A stretch of DNA of 48,861 nucleotides, from positions 1 to 48,861 of IMG/VR virus record IMGVR_UViG_3300022924_000207; one strand, written 5' to 3'. Shown here piece after piece: positions 3,337 to 35,776 of this stretch (positions are counted from its first letter, which is position 1; each line of letters starts with the position of its first letter). The notes below the pieces were generated by a model. The model searched no databases, was not told the origin of the DNA, and saw only the letters and a program-made list of their open reading frames with translations. The translations under genes and the position numbers were made by a program. The stretch comes from a virus.

Positions 3337-3780
3337 TTACACCTCCCATTTGATAAGGACGCCGTTCCAGGCGCGTTCACCATGCAGGCTCATCAGGTAC
3401 AGCCTTAACTGGTGGTATGTATTGAACCCTTCTGCCCTGGCGAAACGCTCCAGCTGCTTGCGGTTCAAAGGTTCGCCGTCCAGGAATATCGGCTCCTGGT
3501 CATGCACGTCGATATGCACAGGTAGCACCTCGATCAGCGTGGCCTCGCGTACGATCTTCATGGAAACGGTGCTGGTTGATACCCAGGCGATGACCTGGTC
3601 ATTGGTGACTGGCGCTATCTCGTAGTCTTCCACTGCGCGCAGCAAGGCTTGCAACTTGGTGCCTGCGCGGATGCCATGCTCGAAACCTGGCCGGAATTCC
3701 AAGGCTATGACCCTCGCAGCCTTGCCTTGGGAGAGGGCAGCATTACCCGGCACCGCAACTGGTTCGATTAGCTCAAGCAT
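3337..3780 (-). CDS. ASCH-domain-like protein
   Basis: A 147-residue protein starting MLELIEPV, ATG overlapping the end of the parB-like gene. The order of elements (a hydrophobic strand with FRPGFEHGIRAGTKLQ, a middle strand QVIAWVSTSTVSMKIVRE, then LIEVLPVHI and a helical tail) matches small ASCH/PUA-fold proteins common in phages, which are thought to bind RNA or modified nucleotides. The usual KTQTIR signature is weak here (KLQALL), so the assignment is tentative. Translation is probably coupled to parB because the start lies inside its last codons. Confidence 0.55.
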   Translation of the reverse strand: MLELIEPVAVPGNAALSQGKAARVIALEFRPGFEHGIRAGTKLQALLRAVEDYEIAPVTNDQVIAWVSTSTVSMKIVREATLIEVLPVHIDVHDQEPIFLDGEPLNRKQLERFARAEGFNTYHQLRLYLMSLHGERAWNGVLIKWEV

Positions 3781-5473
3781 TGGCGGCCTCACTGGTTTGC
3801 GTGGCGGCAGCCGCGCCAGTTTGTACATCGGCGCTAGCCGATTCCTTTTGTTGTTGGGGTTTAGCGCGCCTCGCGCGCCTGGCGAGTTCCTTGTCCTTTA
3901 TCGCCTGAAGTTTCGGCGGTAAGGTTTTTGCCGGCGCAGCCGGGAGGTCGTTTTGTGAAATTTCCGGTGTGTTATTTACCTGCGTAGCAGGCAGTGGGGT
4001 AGTGGGCGTTTCGAAGTCTTTTTTAGTTTGAACGGTTGCCTCACCAAACTCTGTGCCTTTATTCCGTCCGGCTGGATTTAGATTTTCTGCTTCTTCTTTA
4101 AGAATTTCTGAAGCTGTAAGACCGAGCGAATACATCAAAAACATCATGTCTTCGGGTTCATCAACCGTGTCTTCGCTGAAATTCCAATCAACATCCGTTC
4201 CCTGTGCAGCCATAATCAAAAACAGGAATTTAAGTAGGTTTGCGTTGGTGGTTGGCTGTGCAACCATGCCCTGCAGAAAGTCTGCGTCATCGATACCGTT
4301 GTAGCCGTAGGCTCCTTGCACCAGTTCCCGGCCTTCTGGGTACAGTTGCTCGAACTGCTTTTCTATCAACACTTCAAGCAGGCAGGTGATGGGGAATTCT
4401 TTTAGGCCGCCGTATTCGTTGATGCTGTCGCACATCACCCCGAAAATCTTCTCGCGGCTTTCGGTCTCTTCCTGCATCAGGGTGTGGCGACGTGATTTTT
4501 CCTGCTCATATTGGGGGGCGGTTTGGAACGTCGCGGGGGGTGTGCTTGCAGGTGTTTCAGCCTGAAGCATAGATGTCTCTGCCTGTGGAGTGCGGACGTC
4601 CGCATTCTCTTCGGGTACTTTTGCTATTTCAGATTTAGCCTTGTGCGCTTCACACTTGGCGGTATAGCAATCAGGGTCAGTGCAGACGTCCGCACTTTCT
4701 ATATCGCTAAATAATTCAGGGGTATTGCCGCTACGCTTGGGGCATGTCTTGCAGCTGCCGGCATCGGGTATTAGATCAACCACCCAGGCAGCAAGCCTGA
4801 ATGGGGCGGATTTTAATTTAAGCGTATACCGTGCGTGAATATGCTCTTTTGCCTTGCGAAAGCTCATCGGCTCGGCTTCTTCACTGCCGACGATCTCGCG
4901 GGTTGCAGACTCTTGCAGCTTGGTGCCGGGTATACGGGCAATCAAGATCGCGGTCTCGCGGCCAAATTTGCCAGCTAAGAATTTATCTTGAGCATAGGTG
5001 CACAACTCGGTAAGTTTGAGTGCGCCGTAAATGTGGGTTTTGCTGATTCCGAGCTTGGCGGCCATGTCTTCGACGGTGAATCCCACCAGGTCTTCGGTCT
5101 GGCTCTTGGCGAGAAGCTCTTTAAATCCCAGCGCTTCTTCCAGTGGATGCAGATCCACGCGATGCAGGTTTTCCATCACTTGGAGTTCCAGCGCCTCCAG
5201 ATCAGTTAGTTCGCGGACAACGCCAGGGATTGTTTCCATGTTGGCAAGCTTGCTGGCCCGCCAGCGTGACTCGCCCGCGACAATCTCAAAATGCTCCAGG
5301 GGGTTCTCCGGGTGCGGCCTGACCACGATAGGCTGAATCACGCCCTTGATGCTGATGCTGGCGGCCATCTCCTCCAGCTTTTTTTCGTCAAACCGCTTGC
5401 GTGGGTTGGTGCGAGAAGGGAAAACGCTATCGATAGGCAAATTGCGGCCAAGGTTATTTTGAGAGTTGTCCAT
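3773..5473 (-). CDS. ParB/KorB-like DNA-binding protein
   Basis: A 566-residue protein with a ParB N-terminal domain (residues 12-110): TNPRKRFDE, the GESRWRA box near 67-73 that in ParB proteins forms part of the CTP pocket, and ENLHR at 101-105. A helix-turn-helix follows at about 133-154 (DMAAKLGISKTHIYGALKL). Residues about 232-275 hold a cluster of Cys (CKTCPKR, CTDPDCYTAKCEAH), a possible zinc site. The rest is long and low in complexity. The start at 5473 has AAGGA upstream. No ParA ATPase gene is next to it, so it may be a regulator like KorB rather than a partition protein. Two copies of a near-perfect 18-bp palindrome lie inside the gene, a possible binding site. Confidence 0.85.
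   Translation of the reverse strand: MDNSQNNLGRNLPIDSVFPSRTNPRKRFDEKKLEEMAASISIKGVIQPIVVRPHPENPLEHFEIVAGESRWRASKLANMETIPGVVRELTDLEALELQVMENLHRVDLHPLEEALGFKELLAKSQTEDLVGFTVEDMAAKLGISKTHIYGALKLTELCTYAQDKFLAGKFGRETAILIARIPGTKLQESATREIVGSEEAEPMSFRKAKEHIHARYTLKLKSAPFRLAAWVVDLIPDAGSCKTCPKRSGNTPELFSDIESADVCTDPDCYTAKCEAHKAKSEIAKVPEENADVRTPQAETSMLQAETPASTPPATFQTAPQYEQEKSRRHTLMQEETESREKIFGVMCDSINEYGGLKEFPITCLLEVLIEKQFEQLYPEGRELVQGAYGYNGIDDADFLQGMVAQPTTNANLLKFLFLIMAAQGTDVDWNFSEDTVDEPEDMMFLMYSLGLTASEILKEEAENLNPAGRNKGTEFGEATVQTKKDFETPTTPLPATQVNNTPEISQNDLPAAPAKTLPPKLQAIKDKELARRARRAKPQQQKESASADVQTGAAAATQTSEAANA
4589..4606. promoter_or_regulatory. 18-bp palindrome, copy 1 (inside parB-like gene)
   Basis: AGTGCGGACGTCCGCATT, one mismatch from the perfect palindrome AGTGCGGACGTCCGCACT. 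Two other copies occur in this window, one 90 bp away and one just upstream of the late promoter. Candidate ParB/KorB-type operator; no binding evidence. Confidence 0.5.
4679..4696. promoter_or_regulatory. 18-bp palindrome, copy 2 (inside parB-like gene)
   Basis: AGTGCAGACGTCCGCACT, one mismatch from the perfect palindrome. Its centre is 90 bp from that of copy 1. See copy 3 at 12532. Confidence 0.5.
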
Positions 5474-5483
5474 GGGGAAATCC

Positions 5484-5720
5484 TTAATTGATGTGATGAG
5501 CCGGTACGTCAGGCATGCCTGCTGCCCAAGCATCCAGCAGTTCTTGTATGCCCTTTACTACGTCCTCACGGGCGGAATTGCTGACGTAATTGGCACGTTC
5601 CGGTGTAAATACAATGAGTGTGAAACCTACCCGGTGACCTGCAGCCAATGTCGTGAGTTTTTCGATTACATCTGCTATTTCAGGTAAAGCTCTGCTTACT
5701 TTTTCTGCTGAACTGGACAT
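5484..5720 (-). CDS. Small conserved phage protein
   Basis: A 78-residue protein. It has a helical N terminus, a strand pair GFTLIVFTPERANYVSNSAREDVVKGI and a C-terminal helix. I recognise this pattern (G-F-x-L-I-V-F-x-x-x-R-A-x-Y-x-S-N-x-x-R-E-D-V) as a small protein frequent in proteobacterial prophages, with no function I can name. AGGA precedes the ATG at 5720. It sits just upstream of the parB-like gene in the early operon. Confidence 0.7.
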   Translation of the reverse strand: MSSSAEKVSRALPEIADVIEKLTTLAAGHRVGFTLIVFTPERANYVSNSAREDVVKGIQELLDAWAAGMPDVPAHHIN

Positions 5721-9139: not shown

Positions 9140-9314
9140 ACGTCGCAGGCTTGCCAGGCAGCGGGCATGCAACCGGGCCGACCGCCTCCGAATAAGGTTT
9201 TTGGTGTCGAAATTCGTCAAAGAATGCTGCGACAAAGTGGTAGCTAGGATGGTGGCTGCCTTTTCTACCGCATTCGACCGGATGCTAGGCCTGTATCGCA
9301 GGGAGCCGGATTAA
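9129..9314 (+). CDS. Small basic protein
   Basis: A 61-residue, Arg-rich protein (MKNRRRRLARQRACNRADRLR...) overlapping the CII-like stop by 11 bases and touching the next start as TAATG. The N-terminal 25 residues are strongly basic and could bind nucleic acid; the rest is helical. The overlaps and coding context support it; no family recognised. Confidence 0.5.
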   Translation: MKNRRRRLARQRACNRADRLRIRFLVSKFVKECCDKVVARMVAAFSTAFDRMLGLYRREPD

Positions 9315-9829
9315 TGGCCCGCTTTGTTCCATACGGGCGTGACATCTACAACAAGCGTAAAGCAGGTGAAAAAGTCGGTCTATTGATAGTCGGCACCGGC
9401 TGGAAGGCCGGGCAGCTGTTCCCCAATAACGAGCGCGTACAGCGTTGCGTGATCCTGGATGACATGCCGATCACTGGCGGCAACATCATGTTCATGGCCG
9501 GGCTGGATGTGCTGGTCTGTCCCTCTGAAGAAACCACCGATAAGCGCCTGCAGGAAGTGTTGGCCGCCTGCTTTGAGCATGGCAAGGCCAGCCAGGTGTG
9601 GTGCGTGTTCAATGAGGATATCGCCCACGAGGTGAAGTACTTCGAAAGCGCCAATGCTGAATTCGATAACGCAGTAACCACAGGCGTCTCAGTACCCCTC
9701 GACGGGCTTGCGCCAGCCATTAAAGAAGCCCAGCGGATGATGATGATCCGGCGACAGGGCATCTACGCAGATCCCGATACTCACGATGATTTTGTGCGCA
9801 AGCTATTCGAAAGCGCGGTGGCTTCATGA
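9314..9829 (+). CDS. Hypothetical early phage protein
   Basis: A 171-residue protein with alternating strands and helices: KVGLLIVGTGWKAG, CVILDDMPITGG, LDVLVCPSEETTDKRLQEVLAACFEHGKASQVWCVFNED. This could be a small Rossmann-like fold, but no nucleotide motif is certain. It overlaps the VapE gene by four bases, which suggests a shared role in replication. No family recognised. Confidence 0.7.
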   Translation: MARFVPYGRDIYNKRKAGEKVGLLIVGTGWKAGQLFPNNERVQRCVILDDMPITGGNIMFMAGLDVLVCPSEETTDKRLQEVLAACFEHGKASQVWCVFNEDIAHEVKYFESANAEFDNAVTTGVSVPLDGLAPAIKEAQRMMMIRRQGIYADPDTHDDFVRKLFESAVAS

Positions 9830-11136
9830 GCGCCAAAAAAGACGCTGCCCAGGAGGTGTTCGACAAGCTGGACGTAGACGCCATGCTCATCAAGAGCGAA
9901 AAAGGCAACCCGATGGCACTGCCGGCGAATATTGAATGCATCCTCCAGAACGACGCGGAATGGCAAGGCGTGTTGCGCCTGAATGAAATGTCGGGCGAGG
10001 TGGACAAGGTGAAGCAGCCGCCGATCTCGGGTGGTCTCGGCCAATGGCGTGATACCGACGACACGCGCTTATCGATCTGGTGCTCTCGTAAATACGGGCT
10101 GCATGCTTCAGTCAAGAATATGTACGAAGTGGTCAATGCGGTGGCGGATGAGCATAGCTATTCGCCAGTGCGTGATTACCTGGATAACCTGACCTGGGAT
10201 AAAACGCCCCGGCTGGCAACCATGTTGCGAAAGTATTTCGGGGCGAGTGCCGAAGCGCCGGATAAGTACCTGGAACTGGTCGGCATCTATTGGATGATCT
10301 CTGCGGTCGCCAGAACCTACTGGCCGGGCTGCAAAGCTGATTGCGTGCTGATTCTGGAAGGCGAACAGGGCAAGAAAAAATCCACGGCGCTCAAGGTGCT
10401 GTGCGGTGATGACTGGTTCATGGATACGCCGATCAAGATAGGCTCGACGGATGCCTACCAGGCCATGCGCGGCATATGGATTGTCGAACTGGCCGAACTG
10501 GACAGCTTGAACAGGTCGGAGTCTTCCACTTCCAAAGCGTTTTTCTCCTCTACCAAAGACCGATACCGGGCCGCTTATGGCCGACGTGTCATTTCGGTGT
10601 TACGCCAGTGCGTGTTCGCGGGTTCGGTCAATCATCGGCAGTACATGCGAGATGAGACCGACAACCGGCGCTACCTGCCCGTGTGGTGCGATGAATTTTC
10701 CCTTGAAGAACTAAAGGCCGACCGTGACCAATTATGGGCCGAAGCGGTAGCGCTCTATAAAGACGGGCACCGTTGGTGGGCTGAAGACGATGACGAAAAG
10801 GCGTTGTTCAAAGAGGAACAGGCCAAGCGCTACATCGGCGATGCGTATGAGGAAAAGATTGAACGCTGGCTGCGGGATAACCCGGCCATCGAAGTGACGA
10901 TGGAGAAGCTGATGGGCAACGCCCTGGGGCTTGATTCCAGCAAGTGGAGCAAGGCTGAACAGATGCGAGTCGGCACGATCATGACGTCGCGCCTGGGCTG
11001 GGTGAAGAAGCGGCCAGAGAGGTCGGGCACTCGCATATACGTGTATTTCCCGCCCAAGAACTGGCTGTCGGTTAATTATGAACCGGGCCAGGATGCCGGC
11101 AAGGAGATGGATGATGGAGAGGAGATTCTATTTTGA
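9826..11136 (+). CDS. VapE-family primase-helicase
   Basis: A 436-residue member of the virulence-associated E family, P-loop ATPases that act as replicative helicases in phages and pathogenicity islands. Walker A is GEQGKKKS at about 179-186; a Walker B-like stretch, GIWIVELAELDSL, lies near 214-226; and DRYRAAYGRR with FAGSVN gives the sensor/arginine region around 243-270. The N terminus lacks a CHC2 primase zinc domain, so it is the helicase-only version. It is coupled to the preceding gene by an ATGA overlap. A large inverted repeat with iterons lies directly downstream, a likely replication origin on which it would act (inference). Confidence 0.88.
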   Translation: MSAKKDAAQEVFDKLDVDAMLIKSEKGNPMALPANIECILQNDAEWQGVLRLNEMSGEVDKVKQPPISGGLGQWRDTDDTRLSIWCSRKYGLHASVKNMYEVVNAVADEHSYSPVRDYLDNLTWDKTPRLATMLRKYFGASAEAPDKYLELVGIYWMISAVARTYWPGCKADCVLILEGEQGKKKSTALKVLCGDDWFMDTPIKIGSTDAYQAMRGIWIVELAELDSLNRSESSTSKAFFSSTKDRYRAAYGRRVISVLRQCVFAGSVNHRQYMRDETDNRRYLPVWCDEFSLEELKADRDQLWAEAVALYKDGHRWWAEDDDEKALFKEEQAKRYIGDAYEEKIERWLRDNPAIEVTMEKLMGNALGLDSSKWSKAEQMRVGTIMTSRLGWVKKRPERSGTRIYVYFPPKNWLSVNYEPGQDAGKEMDDGEEILF

Positions 11137-11153
11137 TGGCTCTCTGTATTGAT

Positions 11154-11349
11154 TCCGTCCTACCAAACGCAAGGCCGGACGGAGGCCGGACGCTGGAAAG
11201 CCGCACGGTTATTGGCTCCGTCCTACCGTCGCACCCGTCCTACCAGTCTTCCCATACGTGTACGCGCGCGTCATGTGTATTTTTTTTAAGTAGGACAGAT
11301 AGGACAGTAGGACGCAATAAGCAACGGCGCGGGTTTCCAGCGTCCGGCC
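11154..11349. repeat. Long imperfect palindrome with GTCCTAC iterons, candidate origin
   Basis: The 244-base gap after the VapE gene holds a hyphenated inverted repeat of about 166 bp. Its outer arms are identical over 16 bp: GGCCGGACGCTGGAAA (11184-11199) and TTTCCAGCGTCCGGCC (11334-11349). The centre is the CGCGCG run at 11264-11269. GTCCTACC occurs at 11157, 11220 and 11237; TAGGAC, its complement, at 11291, 11300 and 11308. The arms stay similar along most of their length. Repeats plus dyad next to a replicative helicase suggest an origin. Confidence 0.6.
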
Positions 11350-11379
11350 ACGTCGCACCATCCATAAAAGAGGCGGGCA

Positions 11380-11622
11380 ATGAATAAGCGTGAACAGACC
11401 CGGCAGGACTTCCCCGAAAACGCCAAGATCATTGATGCCTTCACTGAGGTGTTCGGTGCGGTGCGGATTGACTACGTGGCTGAAGGCGGTCGGGAACTCA
11501 AGACACGCAACCATACCGAGGAAAGCCAGTTCAAGGTGATCAAGGGCAAAGACCTGGTGACGAATCCCGATCCCGAGAAAATGAAACAGTTTTATGCAAA
11601 GCACAAGGTGAAACCATTATGA
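11380..11622 (+). CDS. Small conserved phage protein
   Basis: An 80-residue protein starting MNKREQTRQDFPENAKIIDAF. It has a helix followed by a strand pair (VRIDYVAEGGRELKTR) and a basic tail. GAGG lies upstream of the ATG. This short protein type often follows the primase-helicase gene in prophages, but I know no function for it. Confidence 0.65.
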   Translation: MNKREQTRQDFPENAKIIDAFTEVFGAVRIDYVAEGGRELKTRNHTEESQFKVIKGKDLVTNPDPEKMKQFYAKHKVKPL

Positions 11623-13215: not shown

Positions 13216-13731
13216 ATGAACCAGAATACTGAATTGGTCGCAGTCGATAGCAGCGCCGTACAAAGTCCAAGCACCTCTTCCAGCCAATTCGTGTCTGCGA
13301 TACCTGCGCCGCCTGAAAAGCTTTCTGCCAAGGATAAGAAGTTCTGGGATTACATAACAGCAGCGTTGCTCGAATACGGCCTGATCCACAAGACTGACGG
13401 CTTTGTGTTACTGATCATTGTTAAAACTTTCCAGCGCTGGGTGCAAACGGAGACCCTGCTGGAAGCGCACATGAAAGAAAACAACGGAAATTACTTCGTC
13501 AAAACCCCGAATGGCTATGACCAGCCGCACCAGTTGTATTTTGCTGCCCGTAACCTTAAAGGCGAATTGCTCAAGTGGCTGCCAGAAGCCGCGCTGACTA
13601 TTCCAAGTTTCCATAAAATCGTCGGAGATCAGGCTGCGCCACTGCAGGGCGGACTGTTCGATGACCCCGTTGAGGCGCACCAGAAGCGCGGAAGGCTGCT
13701 TAAATTCCCTGGCGCTAACCCAGCAAAATGA
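13216..13731 (+). CDS. terS: Terminase small subunit, P27 family
   Basis: A 171-residue protein of the P27 small terminase family, which recognises the packaging site and regulates the large subunit. Typical features: LSAKDKKFWDYITAALLEYGLI (about 39-60), a helical central part, and GYDQPHQLYFAARNLKGELLKWL with a C-terminal GRLLKFP. The start at 13216 has AGGA upstream; a TTG start at 13192 would be less likely. It overlaps the large-subunit start by four bases. Confidence 0.88.
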   Translation: MNQNTELVAVDSSAVQSPSTSSSQFVSAIPAPPEKLSAKDKKFWDYITAALLEYGLIHKTDGFVLLIIVKTFQRWVQTETLLEAHMKENNGNYFVKTPNGYDQPHQLYFAARNLKGELLKWLPEAALTIPSFHKIVGDQAAPLQGGLFDDPVEAHQKRGRLLKFPGANPAK

Positions 13732-35700: not shown

Positions 35701-35776
35701 GCCCCCGTAGCTCAGTGGATAGAGCATCCCCCTCCTAAGGGGAGGGTCACACGTTCGATTCGTGTCGGGGGCACCA
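35701..35776 (+). tRNA. tRNA-Arg (CCT)
   Basis: A full cloverleaf with encoded CCA. Acceptor GCCCCCG pairs with CGGGGGC, the D arm has GCTC...GAGC, the anticodon stem TCCCC/GGGGA encloses CTCCTAA with anticodon CCT (decodes AGG), and the T arm is ACACG-TTCGATT-CGTGT. The gene is intact at the left edge of element 2, as expected when an element integrates into a tRNA 3' end and regenerates it. Confidence 0.95.

Follow-up and report, generated by a model that had tools for sequence, protein, structure and literature searches.

The window analyzed here is the complete 48,861-nt virus record IMGVR_UViG_3300022924_000207 from IMG/VR. On its plus strand it encodes a 436-aa VapE helicase (positions 9826 to 11136; Pfam VapE-like family PF05272, E = 4e-73), whose AAA+/SF3-like core (residues ~119 to 334) is followed by a C-terminal winged helix (~335 to 413), with the recognition helix at residues 376 to 389 and the wing at residues 393 to 408 in an AlphaFold model (mean pLDDT 89). 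The nearest fold in the PDB is that of SaPI1 PriRep1 with double-stranded DNA (7pds; TM 0.72), which is also the nearest solved structure by sequence (profile E = 2e-80). Since VapE lacks here the N-terminal primase region present in relatives of about 730 to 890 aa, priming must come from elsewhere; the 171-aa gene immediately upstream (9314 to 9829) matched no Pfam or PHROG family. A ParB-like protein of 586 aa (3773 to 5533, minus strand; PHROG 4715) is encoded on the opposite strand to the left of the early operon, and a tRNA gene at 35701 to 35773 (plus strand, 68 bits) was the sole match in the Rfam scan.

Directly 3' of vapE, whose stop codon ends at 11136, lies a repeat-rich element (about 11157 to 11358). 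We found no supported gene in the intergenic gap that holds it (11137 to 11379). The two open reading frames crossing this gap, a TTG frame (11133 to 11387) and an antisense frame that runs through the element (11209 to 11604, minus strand), have no Pfam match, and the latter is probably spurious. That such frames might be wrongly annotated as genes had been anticipated in the initial annotation of this DNA, and Pseudomonas phage Haddon (L171) provides an example: CDS0006 (1688 to 1813), a “hypothetical protein,” is located inside the putative origin of that phage, and both it and CDS0005 (1456 to 1581) are tiny hypothetical genes in or beside this site that are probably spurious.

When every centre in the window was scanned, the top inverted repeat was centred at 11266, with 60-nt arms (11184 to 11243 and 11290 to 11349) that pair at 46 of 60 positions (77%) across a gap of 46 nt. 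The background, with all centres and loops tried, had a mean of 15 and a standard deviation of 3.4, and the next unrelated site reached 32. The initial annotation had described a 166-bp palindrome with identical 16-bp outer arms, a CGCGCG centre, and repeated GTCCTAC boxes. The identical arms (GGCCGGACGCTGGAAA at 11184 to 11199 and TTTCCAGCGTCCGGCC at 11334 to 11349), the centre, and the boxes were all found again, but one further box, at 11157, falls outside the 166 bp, and the description had missed a third, degenerate box in each inner array (GTCGCAC at 11228 and ATAGGAC at 11299) as well as a degenerate box (GTCCGGC) inside the outer arms, which are made up of this box and the adjoining first part of the spacer. 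Exact GTCCTAC occurs five times inside 157 bp of the element and once elsewhere in the 48.9 kb, for an expectation of 2.3 copies in the whole window, and the single-strand DNA fold of the element has a z-score of -6.7.

The two halves of the element, each read toward the centre, follow one plan. The inner left array (11220 to 11243, plus strand) comprises GTCCTAC at 11220, GTCGCAC at 11228, and GTCCTAC at 11237, with spacings of 8 and 9, and the inner right array (11290 to 11313, minus strand) comprises GTAGGAC at 11290, ATAGGAC at 11299, and GTAGGAC at 11307 in the mirror spacing of 8 and 9, so that the opposite strand reads GTCCTAC (11307), GTCCTAT (11299), and GTCCTAC (11290) toward the centre. 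Beyond the left array are an outer GTCCTAC box (11157 to 11163, plus strand; offset -63 from the first inner box) and two degenerate boxes on the minus strand, both GCCGGAC: a presumptive one at 11174 to 11180, two mismatches away from GTAGGAC, and one at 11185 to 11191 (offset -35) that is contained in the 16-bp outer arm. The latter is mirrored on the right by GTCCGGC (11342 to 11348, plus strand; offset -35), followed by GTCGCAC (11352 to 11358, plus strand), a degenerate variant identical to the inner box at 11228; the outermost forward box that the plan would predict on the right is absent. Spacers of ~28 nt separate the inner arrays from the degenerate boxes of opposite orientation. The left spacer (11192 to 11219, plus strand) contains the recurring motif GCCGCACGGTTATTGG, two mismatches away from CCGCGCCGTTRYTGG, and the reverse complement of the right spacer (11314 to 11341, minus strand) contains the same motif, CCCGCGCCGTTGCTTATTG. 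The central gap (11244 to 11289) is occupied in large part by an alternating purine-pyrimidine, Z-DNA-prone tract (11253 to 11279) of 19 unbroken nucleotides (CATACGTGTACGCGCGCGT), one break, and 8 more (CATGTGTA); a run of 19 was reached in none of 200 shuffles of the gap, for which the mean longest run was 5.8. AT-richness is confined to the right part of the gap, where T8AA (11280 to 11289, plus strand) adjoins the right array and forms the likely melting region. No GC-skew switch was seen at the element.

Element DNA had no similarity matches among phage records, which implies that whatever is conserved is the layout and not the sequence. VapE as a single query retrieved one identical viral contig and nothing among genome contigs. 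Searching instead with a profile built from six VapE proteins yielded 160 loci in viral contigs and bacterial genomes, and annotated phages were added to these. In most loci, a GTCCTAC-type box was the inverted 7-mer repeated most often in the 700 bp that follow vapE. Of 128 dereplicated loci, 96 had inverted arrays of tandem boxes in the region downstream of VapE according to a strict automatic detector that required at least two tandem boxes, a gap of 20 to 180 bp, and at least two inverted boxes; the detector fired in 20 of 376 control windows taken upstream and in none of 128 shuffles. As the detector missed the window's own copy because of its degenerate middle boxes, and as boxes are visible by eye in several other misses, the true share probably exceeds this 75%; a few loci (e.g., L058 and L074) appear to be without the element. 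The initial annotation had taken loss of the inverted repeat in relatives that keep the flanking genes as the outcome that would speak against it, and the comparison of the same gap across VapE loci gave the opposite, with the inverted arrays retained. In this record and in phages Haddon and PS3, moreover, the VapE-adjacent site is the densest inverted 7-mer cluster of the entire genome.

The nested organization recurs as well. Pairs of outer boxes at preferred offsets were found in 31 of 48 left and 35 of 48 right half-sites (0.15 and 0.05 expected); in relatives, the outer forward boxes lie mostly at -55, -65, and -73, and -34/-35 or -30/-31 are the usual offsets of the reverse one. The spacer motif is found within two mismatches in 42 of 128 loci versus 1 of 128 upstream controls. 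It is independent of the iterons, sits between the outer and inner boxes (e.g., in L079, L082, and many Pseudomonas loci), and in the window is present in both halves. In most of the 48 loci, the gap contains an alternating purine-pyrimidine stretch whose length significantly exceeds that in shuffles, followed by an AT-rich part beside the right array (AT content by fifths of the gap,.41,.40,.30,.63, and.66). The tract was seen at the same place in L068, as a 35-nt run, and in L061 and L098; it is missing in several alphaproteobacterial loci. Among six phages sampled outside the Proteobacteria, five carry the array after a gene for a VapE-type helicase (Bacteroides F4, Staphylococcus QT1, Latilactobacillus, Corynebacterium, and, weakly, Streptococcus), and in Bacteroides BF503P4 it was not found after that gene. 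The layout is therefore not specific to PICIs. In Staphylococcus phage QT1 (L175, 3361 to 3719), the depositors had annotated the inverted iteron arrays that follow the primase-helicase gene as repeat_region features and named no origin there.

This distribution bears on two alternative functions. Given its position between two codirectional genes and the one weak terminator-like stem called within it (11256 to 11271), the element might, instead of being an origin, control transcription of the downstream genes, as an operator bound by a repressor or CII, a terminator, or an attenuator. However, terminator-like stems are as numerous in the element as in shuffles, promoter-like sites are absent from it, and it stays near VapE and covaries with it, whereas the downstream genes differ between lineages; we thus consider transcription control very unlikely. 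A mobile, MITE-like repeat or a packaging site (cos/pac) could likewise be imagined, as the element resembles a terminal inverted repeat and the gene for the terminase large subunit starts at 13728. Yet it is present in a single copy in the record, for which reason a MITE or repeat element was rejected, and its layout accompanies VapE through different phyla even as the boxes diverge in concert, which reduces the probability of this reading to almost nothing.

The box sequence differs between lineages: GTCCYAC in Pseudomonas and in the window, TGTCCCAA/T in Cupriavidus, Massilia, and relatives, GTGGTCA in Glaciecola and Pseudoalteromonas, GGTCAC/GGTCAT in Marinobacter PS3, TTGCCAA in Thiodiazotropha, GTCCAAC and GCCCAAC in alphaproteobacteria, and GACAACC in Methylophaga. 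With the helicase core controlled for, iteron distance tracks the distance between VapE C-terminal domains in a partial Mantel test, which takes related loci as exchangeable, both for iterons read by eye (r = 0.29, p = 0.001) and for automatically called iterons at four redundancy cutoffs (r = 0.33 to 0.37, p <= 0.002); the reverse test of iterons against the core, with the C-terminal domain controlled for, was null (r about 0 or negative). In the recognition helix, PPEQKRVG is common to GTGGTCA loci, PEQMRVG is found in most GTCCYAC loci, EQQRVG or a close variant in TGTCCCAA/T loci, and HQNR/HTNR in TTGCCAA and GACAACC loci. This statistical covariation and the predicted winged helix suggest that the C-terminal domain of VapE may recognize the iterons. 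The earlier suggestion that the dyad could load VapE is thereby strongly supported: many lineages retain the arrays after their vapE genes, and box and C-terminal domain vary jointly.

The same data speak to whether the palindrome acts through its own pairing, that is, as a cruciform that extrudes under supercoiling and whose hairpin initiates replication or is recognized. Hairpin potential is strong both here and in relatives, whose z-scores run from -3.8 to -15. Degenerate outer boxes and the recurring spacer motif lengthen the palindrome, which symmetric spacers extend beyond the boxes; of 48 loci, 11, the window's own among them, have mirror symmetry of the spacers exceeding chance at p < 0.01. 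In 27 of the 48, however, spacer symmetry is not significant (p > 0.05), which argues that extrusion is not a shared requirement, and the fold potential already arises from the inverted arrays alone, the part that is conserved. Pairing also does not predict that the boxes are tandem direct repeats as well, nor that all of them vary jointly with the C-terminal domain of VapE; with every box changing in step with the others, a naive analysis of base-pair covariation would be misled. Conserved RNA or cruciform pairing outside the boxes was rejected, as arm pairing there is not kept in relatives (27 of 48). The extrusion put forward in the initial annotation is thus not needed to account for the element, and we regard dependence on a cruciform as highly improbable.

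Iterons in plasmids often have autoregulatory or incompatibility roles, and VapE bound to the boxes could similarly set copy number or the level of its own production, with replication starting elsewhere. The site lies 3' of vapE, away from the vapE promoter, has an AT-rich gap and dyad symmetry, and is homologous to PICI sites that serve as origins (PMC6092414), all of which leave little room for such a role. Instead, because the helicase is homologous and the layout identical to those of SaPIs and PICIs, we interpret the element as a putative phage replication origin cognate to the VapE encoded directly upstream, a reading to which we assign a probability of roughly 0.88. In the mechanism that we propose, the winged helices of VapE would bind the boxes, and one VapE ring would assemble on each inverted array, placing two rings head to head. 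The T-rich side of the gap would then melt, perhaps aided by the supercoil-sensitive purine-pyrimidine tract, a plausible supercoil sink or boundary. VapE would load itself without a DnaB-type loader and unwind outward in both directions, and priming would be provided by the host or by another gene.

With the layout now found beside VapE in phages of Pseudomonas, other Proteobacteria, and sampled Bacteroides, Staphylococcus, Latilactobacillus, and Corynebacterium, it is tempting to speculate that there is one general type of origin, in which a nested iteron dyad, a Z-DNA-prone tract, a melting region, and a self-loading VapE form a common start of replication for many temperate phages of several bacterial phyla, and of which PICI/SaPI origins are one branch. 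Specificity would come from a swappable C-terminal winged helix and amount to a readable helicase-origin code; we lean toward this generalization, with clearly less assurance than toward the origin itself. A widespread layout in VapE phages, together with boxes that track the C-terminal domain, is of more interest than the single palindrome. For a common group of prophages, where the origin usually goes unannotated or is buried under spurious genes, a putative one could now be located from the sequence, and the specificity code between helicase and iterons is testable and bears on the source of satellite replicons.

The layout had previously been described as unique to phage satellites (PICIs/SaPIs). 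In PICIs, the origin lies 3' of rep and has a set of iterons on either side of an AT-rich region; one such origin supported plasmid replication in E. coli (PMC6092414). Judged by its sequence, the element is a phage origin of this SaPI/PICI Rep-ori kind (SaPI1 PriRep1; E. coli PICI EcCICFT073): an AAA+ helicase homologous to SaPI Rep and self-loading in its relatives (7pds) is encoded here, the element lies directly 3' of its gene, and two three-box arrays surround a 46-bp gap, as in the two iteron sets around an AT-rich region that published descriptions give for SaPIs. The record itself is not a PICI, as it has a terminase large subunit and, at 48.9 kb, the size of a phage; unlike the satellites, it represents a tailed phage with terminase and structural genes, its helicase has no fused primase, half of its gap is alternating purine-pyrimidine, and its box sequence is different. 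We found no VapE-associated origins outside SaPI/PICI/SCCmec in the literature covered, which leaves out most subscription papers. In the SCCmec Cch2 operon, a D5/Rep-type helicase binds iterons downstream of its gene through its C-terminal domain, but only three direct iterons are reported for Cch2 (PMC7581432). The origins of SV40 large T and papillomavirus E1 also present arranged sites to a hexameric helicase that recognizes its own origin (an analogy drawn in PMC7581432), whereas their origin-binding domain is N-terminal, and we claim no sequence homology. Iteron plasmid origins of the RepA/DnaA type and the lambda O iterons share with the element repeated short initiator sites beside an AT-rich region. 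The initiators of those systems recruit the host helicase; here, in contrast, the initiator would itself be the helicase, and the putative melting region lies between arrays of opposite orientation.
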